DNA of 64,000 nucleotides. Origin: Meiothermus sp. (GTDB lineage: Bacteria > Deinococcota > Deinococci > Deinococcales > Thermaceae). The stretch spans positions 124,001 through 188,000 of the forward strand of contig NZ_BPIJ01000001.1 of the NCBI RefSeq assembly GCF_026004055.1. The letters run 5' to 3'. The translations under genes and the position numbers were made by a program. Position 1 is the stretch's first letter, and each line of letters starts with the position of its first letter. Below are positions 21,654 through 60,267 of this stretch, piece after piece. The notes under the pieces were generated by a model, which saw nothing but the letters and a program-made list of their open reading frames with translations, searched no databases and had not been told where the DNA came from.

Positions 21654-21761
21654 AGGCCAAAGTGCATTCCTGCGTCAGGTCGCAAGTTGGAAATTGTCTG
21701 GAGTCGAACCCTTTGGGCGCTCAGATGCAGTCTGGGCCAGCGGCAAGGTTATGCTAATGCC

Positions 21762-23243
21762 ATGAGCCACCCCGTGCCCACCCCGGCCCCCCCCACCCAG
21801 GCGCCTGCTGCCATTAAGCTCTCGGGCGTTTCGGTGGCGTTTGAGGGGCAAGAGGTGCTCAAGGGGGTCGACCTCGAGGTGCAAAAAGGCGAGTTTGTGG
21901 CCATCATTGGCCCCTCGGGTGGGGGCAAGAGCACCCTGTTGCGGGTGGTGGCGGGGTTGCTCAAGGCCAAGCAGGGCACGGTGGAGGTGCTGGGCCGCCC
22001 GGCCATGGTTTTTCAAGATTACCGACTGCTGCCCTGGCGCACCGTGGAGCAGAACATCCGGCTGCCCATCGAACTCACCGGCCGGGGTAAAATTGAGACC
22101 TATCTGGGCATGAAGCCCTATCGCCACCTCTACCCACACCAGCTTTCTGGAGGCATGAAGGCCCGCGTGGCCATCGCCCGGGCCCTGGCCCAGGACGCCG
22201 AGGTGCTGCTGATGGACGAGCCCTTCGCGGCCCTGGACGCCCTGGTGCGCGAGCGCTTCAACCTCGAGCTCAAGCAACTCCACGAGCGCACCGGCAAAAC
22301 CATCCTGTTTGTGACCCACAGCATTCGCGAGGCGGTCTACCTGGCCGACCGGGTGGTGGTGCTCACGGGCGGCAAAATTGATGCGATTCTGGACACCAAG
22401 CACGAAGGGCGCATCACGGCCTTTACCGATGGACTCGAGGCCGAGTTGCGCGAACGGCTGGGCGTGGCCGACTCCACCTTGATCGAGCCGCCGCCCAAGC
22501 CCCTGCGCCCACCGTGGGAAGTGTTTGGGGTGCTGGGCTTGGCGGGGCTGTTGCTCCTGAGCTGGACTTGGCTCTCAGATCGAATCCCCCTGTTTTTTCC
22601 CTCGCCCTTTGCAGTGTGGCAGGCTGCGGTACAAAACGCCCCACAACTGGCCCAAAGCGCCTTGGCCACGCTCGAGGTCGCAGCACTGGGGGTGCTATGT
22701 GCCTTGTTGATCGGTATGCCTGTTGGCTACTGGATGGGGCGCAGTAGGATTGTTGAGCGGCTTTTGTCCCCTTTTATCGTGGCATTGCAGGCCATTCCCA
22801 CGGTGATCGTGGCCCCCCTTCTGGTGATCTGGTTCGGCTTTAGCTTAGAGGCCAAGCTCATTACCACCACCCTTATTTCCATTTTCCCTGTAATGGTCTC
22901 GACCATGGTAGGGGTACGCGAGGTGGATCGGATTTACCGCGAGGTGTTTCAGACCATAGGCTCAAGTGCCTGGGGGGTTTTTGCCAAGCTCGAGGTGCCC
23001 GGCGCTTTGCCGGTGGTGCTGGGAGGGTTGCGTCTTACGGTCTCACTGGCTCTGATCGGCGCGGTGGTCGCCGACTTCACCTTTCAAGGCGAAGGTTTGG
23101 GCGCGTTTGCTAACACCGAGCGGCTATCCTTCCGCTACGCCAACGCTTTCGCCGCGGTGGGGGTCAATGTGGTGCTGGGCATTGTGCTGTACGGGCTGGT
23201 GGCCTGGCTAGAAAGCTATGTGCTCCGTTACCGACGCAGGTAA
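21762..23243 (+). CDS. ABC transporter with ATPase and permease fused in one chain (riboflavin type)
   Basis: The 493-residue protein joins two ABC subunits. Residues ~15-235 form an SsuB/TauB-type ATPase: Walker A GPSGGGKST, Q-loop FQDYRLLPWR, signature LSGGMKARVAIARAL, Walker B VLLMDEPFAALDAL and the VTHSIREAV switch. Residues ~260-490 form a BPD permease with five or six helices and an EAA-like loop. The usual arrangement is two separate genes. TATGCT lies 6 nt ahead of ATG 21762, so it is probably leaderless. The FMN-riboswitch-controlled binding protein at 24055 suggests it is the RibX-like half of a RibXY riboflavin importer. Confidence 0.85.
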   Translation: MSHPVPTPAPPTQAPAAIKLSGVSVAFEGQEVLKGVDLEVQKGEFVAIIGPSGGGKSTLLRVVAGLLKAKQGTVEVLGRPAMVFQDYRLLPWRTVEQNIRLPIELTGRGKIETYLGMKPYRHLYPHQLSGGMKARVAIARALAQDAEVLLMDEPFAALDALVRERFNLELKQLHERTGKTILFVTHSIREAVYLADRVVVLTGGKIDAILDTKHEGRITAFTDGLEAELRERLGVADSTLIEPPPKPLRPPWEVFGVLGLAGLLLLSWTWLSDRIPLFFPSPFAVWQAAVQNAPQLAQSALATLEVAALGVLCALLIGMPVGYWMGRSRIVERLLSPFIVALQAIPTVIVAPLLVIWFGFSLEAKLITTTLISIFPVMVSTMVGVREVDRIYREVFQTIGSSAWGVFAKLEVPGALPVVLGGLRLTVSLALIGAVVADFTFQGEGLGAFANTERLSFRYANAFAAVGVNVVLGIVLYGLVAWLESYVLRYRRR

Positions 23244-23255
23244 AAAACGCCGCGC

Positions 23256-23684
23256 TCATTCATACCGCTGCATCAGGTTGTAAGCAAACTCCTCCAACAC
23301 CTCCGGGCGTTCTTCGGCCAGTTGCCACAAGAAGCGCAGCAGCTCGTCGTCGGAGAGCTCGAGCAAGGGCCCCAGGTTCACCGGGGTGCTTTTGCCCAGT
23401 TTTTTGCGGCTGAAAATTTCGGGGGCTTCCAGGGCGGCAAAGGCCACCGCCACCACGTGCTTGCACACCGGCCCCCAGGTGTAGGGGCACGAACACTGCC
23501 ACTTGCCTTTGCTCAGGTTGATCTCGACCCGATACGGAAAAGGCGCGCTGCCCTCGACCCTGGCCTGCAAACGCCCCCGGCTTCGGGCGGCCTCCTTCAC
23601 TGCCCCATGCAGAAAAAGTGCCTTGCCCCGCTCCAAAACCTTCTCGTCGGCCAGGGCCAGCAGGCTTTCTAGTTCCAGGCGCAC
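23256..23684 (-). CDS. SWIM zinc-finger protein
   Basis: The 142-residue protein has a SWIM motif CSCPYTW...CKHVVAVAFAAL (CxCxnCxH) at ~63-82, which binds zinc and usually mediates nucleic acid or protein contacts. It is preceded by a short beta-rich domain and followed by an acidic helical tail (LLELSDDELLRFLWQLAEERPEVLEEF). Such short forms often accompany SNF2 helicases, but none is adjacent. The start is GTG at 23684 after a G-rich stretch. The gene is convergent with the ABC fusion gene (12-bp gap) and divergent from the riboswitch. Confidence 0.82.
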   Translation of the reverse strand: MRLELESLLALADEKVLERGKALFLHGAVKEAARSRGRLQARVEGSAPFPYRVEINLSKGKWQCSCPYTWGPVCKHVVAVAFAALEAPEIFSRKKLGKSTPVNLGPLLELSDDELLRFLWQLAEERPEVLEEFAYNLMQRYE

Positions 23685-23762
23685 CCCCCCATCAAAATCC
23701 AGCCTGCTGCACTTTGCAAGCCCAGGGTTTGTGACTAAACTAACTTTGGGCCGATAGGCCCG

Positions 23763-23908
23763 ATTCCTTCAGGGCGGGGTGCAATTCCCCACCGGCGGTG
23801 ATGGAGCCAGCCTCCTGAGCCCGCGAAGCCTGGAAATCTGCCACACATCCAGGCCCGACTGCGTGCAAATCGCAGGCCGACGGTTACAGTCCGGATGGGA
23901 GAAGGAGT
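23763..23908 (+). promoter_or_regulatory. FMN riboswitch (RFN element)
   Basis: The conserved RFN blocks are all present in order: AGGGCGGGGTGCAATTCCCC, ACCGGCGGTGAT, AGCCCGCGAAGC, GGCCGACGGTTACAGTCCGG and ATGGGAGAAGGAG. The outer helix pairs ATTCCTTC at the 5' end with GAAGGAGT at the 3' end. A hairpin CCCAGG/CCTGGG (23913-23934) follows and may be the expression switch. It controls the binding protein at 24055, so riboflavin or FMN excess should reduce its expression. Confidence 0.95.
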
Positions 23909-24054
23909 GAAGCCCAGGAGCCCCTGTGCCTGGGCGAGAGAAGTGGGTAATACTTCGTAAATCCTCAACTACAGCGGGGTGTTCGGCGCAAAGCCAGAGG
24001 CAGTTCGTGCCTGCCTTGGCTATTTGTGGGTAGCACGGTGTGTTGAGGAGTGCA

Positions 24055-25032
24055 ATGAAACAACTGTTTGTTTTGCTGGCGGTCTTGATGTCGTTGGGGA
24101 TGGCGCAAACGCAAAAGGTGCGGGTGGGGCTTGGATACATTCCCGATGTGCAGTTTGCCCCTTTTTACGCTGGGGTGGTAGAGGGCTTGTATGGTAAACG
24201 GGGCCTCGAGGTGGAGTTTCAGCATGGTTTCGCCAGTGAGCTTTATCCCCTGCTTGCGCAGGGCAAGCTCGACTTTGTGGTGGCCGACGCCGAGGACGTA
24301 ATTGCGCTGCGGGTGCAGGGTATTCCCCTGAAGTACGTTATGGCGCTTTACCAGTCGGTGCCCAATGCCCTATTTTCTCTGGCCGAGAAGAACATCAAGT
24401 CGGTACGCGACCTTAAGGGCAAGACCATTGGCATGCCCGGGATGTTCGGGGTTTCGTTGACCTCCTTGCAAGCCATTCTGCGGGCGGCGGGCTTGAAGGA
24501 AAGCGATGTCAAGATTGTTAACATCGGCTTTACCCAAGCCGAGGCCATCGTACAGAAGCGGGTGGACGTGGCCATGGGCTTCGTCAACAACGAGCCGGTC
24601 TTCTTGCAAGGCCAGGGGATCAAGCTCAACGTAATCCCCGCTGGGCCCTACAACCGCTCGCCGGGTAACGGCATCATCACCACCGACAGGGTGCTCGAGA
24701 ACGCCGATCTAGTGAAGCGCTTTCTCGGGGCCTCGCAGGAGGCTTTAGCCTTCACCATCACCAACCCGCGCAAGGCCTTCGAAGCTGCCAAGAAATACGT
24801 ACAGAACCTCGACGAGATGCGATATGCGGTACTGACCGCCTCCATCAGGCTCTACCAGTCGCCCTACACCCGTCAGAACGGGCTGGGCTTCTCCAATCCC
24901 CAGGGCTGGCAGAGCAGCCTCACCTTGCTGAAGCAGACCGGGCGTGTCAAGACCGACCTGCCCCCCACGGCTTTTTACACCAACGAGTTCTTGCAGCGGG
25001 GCATACAGGCCCAAACCGCCGCTCAGCGCTAA
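24055..25032 (+). CDS. ABC transporter substrate-binding protein, NMT1/THI5-like, likely riboflavin (RibY-like)
   Basis: The 325-residue secreted protein has a cleavable signal peptide (LLAVLMSLGMAQ) and the NMT1/THI5-like fold: VRVGLGYIPDVQFAPFY near the start, then VVADAEDVIALR and LKGKTIGMPGMFG. Proteins of this group bind pyrimidine precursors of thiamine or, in RibXY systems, riboflavin. The FMN riboswitch directly upstream argues for riboflavin. GAGGAG lies 6 nt ahead of ATG 24055. The ATPase-permease fusion gene at 21762 is the obvious partner, separated by one opposite-strand gene. Confidence 0.88.
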   Translation: MKQLFVLLAVLMSLGMAQTQKVRVGLGYIPDVQFAPFYAGVVEGLYGKRGLEVEFQHGFASELYPLLAQGKLDFVVADAEDVIALRVQGIPLKYVMALYQSVPNALFSLAEKNIKSVRDLKGKTIGMPGMFGVSLTSLQAILRAAGLKESDVKIVNIGFTQAEAIVQKRVDVAMGFVNNEPVFLQGQGIKLNVIPAGPYNRSPGNGIITTDRVLENADLVKRFLGASQEALAFTITNPRKAFEAAKKYVQNLDEMRYAVLTASIRLYQSPYTRQNGLGFSNPQGWQSSLTLLKQTGRVKTDLPPTAFYTNEFLQRGIQAQTAAQR

Positions 25033-25048: not shown

Positions 25049-25083
25049 ATACCCGGTACATCCGGTTTGGTTGTACCGGGTAT
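25049..25083 (+). terminator. Hairpin terminator candidate after the RibY-like gene
   Basis: ATACCCGGTACA (25049-25060) and TGTACCGGGTAT (25072-25083) form a perfect 12-bp stem. The following tract is only modestly T-rich. It lies between convergent genes and may serve both. Confidence 0.7.
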
Positions 25084-59379: not shown

Positions 59380-60267
59380 ATGCTACTAATCAACGACCCC
59401 TCCGATGCACCCGCTGGCCCCAAGGTAGTGGCGATTGGCAGCTTTGATGGCTTGCACTTGGGCCACCAGCACCTGATTCACCAAGCCCAGCAGGAGGCCA
59501 AACAGCGGCACATCCCGCTGCTCGTCTATACCTTCGACCCTCCCAGCAAGGTTTTCATGAAGGGGGAGGGTTATCTGACCGATTTGGCGGAAAAGCTCGA
59601 GCTACTGCGAGGCCTGGGGGTGGAGGTTGCTCTAATTGTGCCTTTCAACGAGGCTTTCTCTCGTCGCAGCAAGGAAGAGTTTCTGGACGACCTGCGCACG
59701 CTGGATGCCCAGGTTATTTATGTAGGGGCCGATTTTCGCTTCGGAAAGGGAAGAGCTGGGAACCTGGAAGACCTAAAAACCGTTGCACCGACCCAGGTGT
59801 TGCCCTTGCTCGAGCTCAATGGAGGGCCGGTCAAGTCGAGCCGTATCCGCGAGCTGTTGCGTGAAGGGCAGGTAGACGAGGCCAAGCTGCTCTTGGGACG
59901 GTCGTATAAGGCCAGGGGCATTGTGCAGGAGGGCGACAAACTGGGACGACAGCTGAGTTTTCCCACTGCCAACATTGAAGTGGCCCCCCATAAAATTCTG
60001 CCGCTGGGCGTGTTTGCCGTGCGGGTGCAGACTGAACAGGGCTTGTTTGGTGGCATGGCCAATGTGGGTTACCGCCCCACCGTTTCGGGCCAGATCCTGC
60101 GTTTCGAGGTGCACCTATTTGGCTTTGCAGGTGACCTGTACGGCCAGGAACTCGAGGTGGAGTTTCTGACCAGGTTGCGGGGCGAGAAAAAGTTTGAGAG
60201 CCTAGAAGCCCTCAAAGCCCAGCTTGCGCAGGATGCCGAAGCAGCGCGCAGGGTGTTGGGGATCTAG
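59380..60267 (+). CDS. ribF: Bifunctional riboflavin kinase/FAD synthetase
   Basis: The 295-residue enzyme makes FMN then FAD from riboflavin. The N-terminal adenylyltransferase has GSFDGLHLGHQHLI, VGADFRFGKGRAGN and SSRIRELL; the C-terminal flavokinase has LGRQLSFPTANI and VGYRPTV. It is functionally linked to the predicted riboflavin importer at 21.7-25 kb. The stop codon TAG is completed by the first base of a family B element (60267), so that element probably terminates its transcript. Confidence 0.97.
   Translation: MLLINDPSDAPAGPKVVAIGSFDGLHLGHQHLIHQAQQEAKQRHIPLLVYTFDPPSKVFMKGEGYLTDLAEKLELLRGLGVEVALIVPFNEAFSRRSKEEFLDDLRTLDAQVIYVGADFRFGKGRAGNLEDLKTVAPTQVLPLLELNGGPVKSSRIRELLREGQVDEAKLLLGRSYKARGIVQEGDKLGRQLSFPTANIEVAPHKILPLGVFAVRVQTEQGLFGGMANVGYRPTVSGQILRFEVHLFGFAGDLYGQELEVEFLTRLRGEKKFESLEALKAQLAQDAEAARRVLGI

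Follow-up and report, generated by a model that had tools for sequence, protein, structure and literature searches.

The riboflavin importers designated RibXY and RibXYZ in Chloroflexi combine an NMT1-type substrate-binding protein (SBP), RibY, with a binding-protein-dependent (BPD) permease, RibX, and a flavin mononucleotide (FMN) riboswitch, sometimes together with an ATPase, RibZ (available text of PMC3766115 and PMC4418817). According to the same text of PMC4418817, RibXY of C. aurantiacus complements riboflavin auxotrophy in E. coli, and in some Deinococci species ribY is monocistronic and linked to an FMN riboswitch; for these species that 2015 paper suggests that the permease sits in another transcriptional unit or is that of another system. 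Here we analyzed a 64,000-nucleotide stretch of DNA (“the window”) from Meiothermus sp. (assembly GCF_026004055.1, contig NZ_BPIJ01000001.1, positions 124,001 to 188,000 of the forward strand), in which one gene encodes an ATPase fused to a permease and a second gene, ribY, follows an FMN riboswitch. The source genome (3.18 Mb in 3 contigs, 99.65% complete) was scanned as G000. We consider it probable (roughly 0.87) that the two genes specify a RibXYZ-type riboflavin importer in which RibZ and RibX are fused and serve with RibY, and in which only RibY is under the control of the riboswitch. This reading is based on co-occurrence of the two genes, on the loss of RibH and on Chloroflexota operons that carry FMN riboswitches. 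The fused gene is likely the missing permease partner of the lone riboswitch-ribY unit, a gap left in the available text of PMC4418817.

Coordinates of all features are collected in Table 1. Within a single open frame, the fused protein contains an ATP-binding cassette (ABC) ATPase domain (PF00005) at residues 33–156 and a BPD permease domain (PF00528) at residues 318–485. Its sequence shows a Walker A motif (GPSGGGKST) and an ABC signature (LSGGM), as well as a Q-loop, Walker B motif and H-loop. The predicted structure of the fused protein was too poor for use (predicted local distance difference test, pLDDT, 64.7); that of RibY had a pLDDT of 91.7. The riboswitch aptamer, or RFN element, matched RF00050 over model positions 1–138 of 138, passed the curated covariance-model cut-off and was the single FMN riboswitch match across the whole genome; a chance match was ruled out by its E-value. 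The covariance-model match identifies it as a riboswitch, for which FMN binding and gene control are predicted. The initial annotation, made without database searches, had described one protein joining ATPase and permease and a clear RFN element ahead of the binding protein, and both descriptions held. Its placement of the binding protein 2.3 kb further on is correct when measured from the start of the fused gene; the riboswitch itself ends 144 nucleotides before ribY. Its remark that the ATPase of RibXY systems is normally separate or lacking agrees with the available text of PMC3766115 and PMC4418817. ribY appears to be monocistronic. A terminator-like hairpin 3′ of it went unflagged in a simple terminator scan, and beyond this hairpin the next long open reading frame (ORF) lies on the opposite strand.

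Co-occurrence was scored in a phylum sample of 111 genomes, of which 85 (“good” genomes) had a completeness of 90% or more and a contamination of 5% or less. Orthologues of the fused gene were found in 30 of the 111 (window genome counted) and ribY also in 30; 29 genomes carried both, one carried each gene alone and 80 carried neither. The two genomes with a single member of the pair were 58% and 85% complete. Among good genomes, 29 had both genes, none had either alone and 56 had neither. Pair-bearing genomes spanned four family groups (f1, f2, f3 and f5). The two genes shared a contig in 20 of these 29 genomes, either in tandem as in the window or divergently (G031, G038, G043 and G097). In 23 of the 30 genomes with ribY, an FMN riboswitch precedes the gene on its own strand, at a distance of 23–282 nucleotides. 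In G041 a contig break falls between riboswitch and ribY, and the G096 copy is truncated.

A profile search of the window genome did not find RibH, RibB or RibE, and RibD gave only a match below cut-off (41.6 bits). In control genomes, the RibH and RibB models matched 14 of 14 and the RibE model 11 of 14. A RibF flavokinase domain, for FMN and flavin adenine dinucleotide (FAD) synthesis from riboflavin, is retained. Because RibB, RibE and RibH are missing while RibF is kept, the organism is predicted to be a riboflavin auxotroph. Of other importer families, ECF-type and PnuC/RibM-type ones gave no match in the genome; the search did not extend to RfuABCD, ImpX, RibN, RfnT or others. Among the 29 good genomes that carry the pair, RibH was absent from 19, the window genome included, versus 5 of the 56 without the pair. 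Members both with and without RibH occur within g1 (the genus of the window) and within g2, and RibH was therefore probably lost more than once. In the available text of PMC5132105, a flux-balance model predicts that M. ruber strain A is unable to make riboflavin; the prediction set is called largely consistent with the known nutrient needs of that strain, and the riboflavin pathway is among the worst for agreement of model and expression.

Three kinds of genomes in the sample are recorded separately. The Meiothermus genomes G035, G036 and G037, which lack RibH and RibB, keep a RibE-family (riboflavin synthase) gene that is possibly a flavin- or lumazine-binding protein. In five good genomes of family f5 (G073, G091, G092, G093 and G094), RibH and the transporter were both absent and no FMN riboswitch was found. 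G039, a Meiothermus-group genome that is 84% complete, contains RibH and RibB, and neither transporter gene was found in it.

For control of ribY, the expression platform was folded to −64.3 kcal/mol (z −2.86), with the Shine-Dalgarno strand paired to an upstream strand in the minimum free energy (MFE) structure. By single-sequence folding, equivalent pairing was predicted in 18 of 20 Thermaceae leaders: 14 of the 14 first chosen, a set that excluded the six most divergent, and four of those six, which were folded later. In the leaders of G028, G032, G033 and G034, the Shine-Dalgarno sequence pairs with the same upstream place. When longer leaders were folded at 37 and 60°C, it was paired in 14 of 14 with probability 0.73–1.00; note that this set includes a G041 leader without aptamer and three rows without an aptamer marker, for which the whole 480 nucleotides were folded. 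RFN elements are turned OFF by FMN. Of the two genes, ribY alone is predicted to be flavin-controlled, most likely by sequestration of its Shine-Dalgarno sequence; we infer both the OFF direction and the translational mode. Transcription termination or Rho, rather than hiding of the ribosome binding site, appears an improbable way for this riboswitch to act. A terminator-like pattern was flagged at 23997–24017, the stretch GTTCGTGCC within it (24003–24011) does not vary across the 14 Thermaceae platforms aligned, and the RNAalifold consensus chooses this hairpin and omits the Shine-Dalgarno helix. Set against these points are the lack of a long U-run after the hairpin (tail GGCTATTTGT) and the Shine-Dalgarno pairing predicted in 18 of 20 platforms.

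Upstream of the fused gene, the hexamer TATGCT is located at −12 to −7 relative to the ATG. Among 24 other Thermaceae rows, TATGYT occupied the matching position in 22 and TAnnnT in all 24; these rows correspond to ∼17 genomes, several being present twice. None of the five fused-gene rows outside Thermaceae had TATGYT at this position. Since a general sigma-70 promoter scan gave no match in the region, the leaderless promoter draws its support from this conservation. Because the hexamer is kept at −12 to −7, the fused-gene mRNA should be leaderless, which would leave no room for a riboswitch. At the six scanned fused genes located on a contig other than that of ribY (L159, L161, L163, L165, L172 and L173), no FMN riboswitch was found. 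These comparisons support the proposals of the initial annotation that the transporter gene has a leaderless promoter and no riboswitch, and that the binding protein alone is flavin-controlled. Its assignment to riboflavin import likewise gains comparative support from the co-occurrence table, the missing synthesis genes and the Chloroflexota operons described next.

Relatives of the query were retrieved from GTDB genomes, and 80 of the 255 confirmed loci were compared. Both halves were fused in one ORF at 10 of the 80, all from Thermaceae. Among these 80 relatives of the query, fusion outside the phylum was rejected, as the other 70 had no ORF matching both halves; 10 of the 70 had no permease match at all. 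An Rfam scan covered 16 of the 70 unfused loci, nine of them from Chloroflexota. Eight of these nine showed the order FMN riboswitch-ribX-ribY-ribZ, with three separate genes, and were labelled Anaerolineae, Anaerolineales, Thermoflexales or Roseilinea. The remaining eight scanned loci had no FMN riboswitch; they include the Chloroflexota locus L125, which had no permease or RibY match. Identity to the Chloroflexota proteins was 34–37% for the permease half, 35–40% for RibY and 45–49% for the ATPase half (RibZ). The top-scoring unfused permeases were the eight RFN-linked RibX proteins (worst 2.0e-34; best other 6.7e-32). For the ATPase half, several ATPases not linked to RFN elements, e.g., L088 and L092, scored equal to or better than RibZ. 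Trees were built from 38 rows chosen among the compared loci. In the permease tree, the fused and Chloroflexota permeases formed separate clades; in the ATPase tree, the Chloroflexota row L103 fell apart from the other seven.

Several results weigh against a RibXYZ-type importer controlled through RibY. The trees give no resolved sister relation of the fused permease and ATPase to RibX and RibZ; deep branches are weak, and phylogenetic proof that the halves descend from RibZ and RibX was not obtained. In an alignment, RibY is only 34–39% identical to the Chloroflexota RibY. The Fisher tests on co-occurrence ignore shared ancestry, which inflates the significance of their p-values, and RibH is still present in 10 of the good genomes that have the transporter. 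Five genomes (G001, G002, G003, G007 and G109) have no FMN riboswitch before ribY; the G001 riboswitch lies ∼147 kb from ribY, near the RibB and RibH genes of that genome. Two of the 20 leaders lack the Shine-Dalgarno pairing: that of G037 forms a small hairpin locally, and for G030 the probability is 0.38. In the leader fold, the Shine-Dalgarno sequence is paired even without a ligand term, and no ON-state partner or anti-sequestor was identified in the ribY leader folds. The two genes are on separate contigs in nine of the 29 genomes (G003, G007, G008, G030, G033, G034, G037, G041 and G096). The riboflavin role of RibY and the fused protein is a prediction, and the ligands of the nearest solved structures are thiamin and N-formyl-4-amino-5-aminomethyl-2-methylpyrimidine (FAMP).

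These structures raise the alternative that the substrate of RibY and the fused engine is thiamin or one of its pyrimidine precursors, the FMN riboswitch merely coupling the system to flavin status; the initial annotation had named preference of the binding protein for a thiamine precursor as a contrary case. By fold and by sequence, the solved-structure neighbors of RibY are related to thiamin, FAMP or hydroxymethylpyrimidine (HMP). We regard this alternative as quite unlikely, given the FMN riboswitches that precede ribY in 23 of 30 genomes, the tracking of RibH loss by the transporter, the FMN riboswitches of the homologous Chloroflexota operons and the complementation of a riboflavin auxotroph by the C. 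aurantiacus system (available text of PMC4418817). In addition, no thiamin pyrophosphate (TPP) riboswitch was found in the window, and a scan of 13 loci gave no riboswitch of the TPP or any other class, its single match being an rRNA.

The separate contigs also suggest that the fused engine might serve another binding protein, with RibY using another permease. Some cases are assembly breaks only; in G033, both genes are far from contig ends. Moreover, none of the fused genes was observed to have its own riboswitch. This arrangement is very unlikely when set against the exceptionless co-occurrence in the 85 good genomes. The single other strong NMT1 protein of the window genome is accompanied by an ATPase and two permease ORFs of its own, which makes improbable the pairing of the fusion with another binding protein that the initial annotation had singled out in advance as the contrary case. 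Four further NMT1 matches were weak (26–39 bits), and the neighborhood check covered the strong one. This second NMT1-type ABC importer is located at L158:7462–11595 (G000:C1 about 1061461–1065594), with no Rfam match nearby.

A further argument against a different partner is that, in the window genome, Calidithermus-like sequence makes up both the permease half and the central part of RibY. Sites fixed between Meiothermus and Calidithermus-side rows were classified along both genes; note that two of the five Meiothermus rows used are apparently the same genome. In the fused gene, 12 of 13 sites up to 22482 were Meiothermus-like, 34 of 37 between 22554 and 23167 were Calidithermus-side, and 4 of 4 from 23202 were again Meiothermus-like. 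The 54 classified sites (of 58) formed nine runs, and none of 10000 shuffles gave a number as low. In ribY, 2 of 2 Meiothermus-like sites were followed by 12 of 14 on the Calidithermus side (24265–24824) and 6 of 6 Meiothermus-like sites; 22 of the 24 sites were classified, and they formed seven runs (p 0.026). By protein identity, the ATPase half was closest to Meiothermus (93%) and the permease half to Calidithermus (88%). Because the tracts are about 69–92% identical to donor-like sequences, the true donor is not among the sequences compared. Mosaicism in both genes lends mild support to the idea that the two products work together.

On the importer reading, two copies of the fused RibZ-RibX half-transporter would form a membrane engine that works with the periplasmic binding protein RibY, and RibF would convert imported riboflavin into FMN and FAD. 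We infer the riboflavin substrate, its binding and transport, the dimer and the leaderless start from comparative evidence. Since the biosynthetic genes are missing, import would likely be the main or sole flavin source. The leaderless engine gene would stand outside riboswitch control, so regulation would fall on RibY alone: when FMN is plentiful, the leader is expected to hide the ribY Shine-Dalgarno sequence. More tentatively, Deinococcota may possess a split form of control, in which a constitutive, leaderless motor-channel is set in activity only by its riboswitch-controlled receptor; the pair may have permitted repeated loss of riboflavin synthesis, and the channel and receptor pieces exchanged together here from a Calidithermus-like donor may mark a co-evolving docking interface. 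This broader proposal is speculative, and we hold it to be somewhat doubtful. A compact two-gene riboflavin importer would be amenable to complementation, and receptor-only control is a simple regulatory logic that is directly testable. The system would also provide a genomic reason for the need of many Meiothermus for external riboflavin, fitting the M. ruber strain A prediction in the available text of PMC5132105, and such a need bears on vitamin exchange in hot-spring mats.

The remaining gene of the locus encodes a SWIM zinc-finger protein on the opposite strand and splits the locus as initially annotated; its profile match is weak. No SWIM match was found at the loci of, e.g., G006, G032 and G033. 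The gene lies on the other flank of the fused gene in G031, G038 and G043. Because its position and presence vary among relatives, it was rejected as an importer component and is probably an incidental neighbor.

Table 1. Features of the locus and related genes. Positions are those of the window unless a genome and contig are given.
Feature	Position	Strand	Evidence or remark
−10 hexamer TATGCT, candidate leaderless-type promoter of fused gene	21750–21755	+	Sequence and conservation
Fused ABC ATPase-permease (RibZ-RibX-like), 493 aa	21762–23243	+	PF00005 and PF00528 in single frame
Calidithermus-like tract, permease half of fused gene	22497–23200		Locus otherwise Meiothermus-like
SWIM zinc-finger gene, 142 aa, between fused gene and riboswitch	23256–23684	−	PF04434, weak: 22.1 bits, cut-off 19.6
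FMN riboswitch aptamer (RFN element)	23761–23910	+	RF00050, 105.3 bits, cut-off 66.2, E 1.9e-23
Predicted anti-Shine-Dalgarno strand UCCUCAAC of expression platform	23962–23969	+	Pairs with 24042–24049 in MFE structure
ribY Shine-Dalgarno strand GUUGAGGA	24042–24049	+	Pairs with UCCUCAAC in MFE structure
ribY, NMT1/THI5-like SBP, 325 aa, N-terminal signal sequence	24055–25032	+	PF09084, E 1.1e-45
Calidithermus-like tract, middle of ribY	24235–24830		Locus otherwise Meiothermus-like
Terminator-like hairpin 3′ of ribY, 12-bp stem	25049–25083	+	Fold −28 kcal/mol, z −2.90
RibF flavokinase domain	59893–60258 (G000:C1:183893–184258)	+	PF01687, E 3.2e-41
RibE-family gene	G035:C9:11226–11834		
RibE-family gene	G036:C1:4419–5030		
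RibE-family gene	G037:C94:3670–4284		

In comparison with known systems, the ATPase and permease belong to the broad SsuABC/TauABC/NrtABC family, whose importers are encoded by separate genes. For the fused protein, none of the 25 NCBIfam rows listed (of 208) reached its cut-off. RibY has the SBP fold of ThiXYZ/ThiY and THI5, which bind HMP, FAMP or thiamin, with a TM-score of 0.79 (by query length) to thiamin-bound 4nmy; it is 19–26% identical to the thiamin, FAMP and Thi5 proteins of solved structure, and it differs from these systems by the FMN riboswitch and the link to flavin auxotrophy. The window RibY has a plain signal sequence, whereas a lipobox-like cysteine is present in all six Chloroflexota RibY proteins aligned with it. 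With RibXY and RibXYZ of Chloroflexi, the locus shares an NMT1-type SBP tied to an FMN riboswitch. It does not have their separate genes in a single FMN-riboswitch operon: here ATPase and permease are a single protein, and the engine gene is upstream of and outside riboswitch control, and we therefore class the locus as a RibXYZ variant. A literature search, with most subscription papers outside its reach, found no report of the fused partner. The importer family itself was already known; new are the fusion and its assignment as the missing partner, together with control at the receptor alone and a connection to auxotrophy. The riboswitch-ribY unit of Deinococci, for which the available text of PMC4418817 names no permease, has the same arrangement as riboswitch and ribY of the window.

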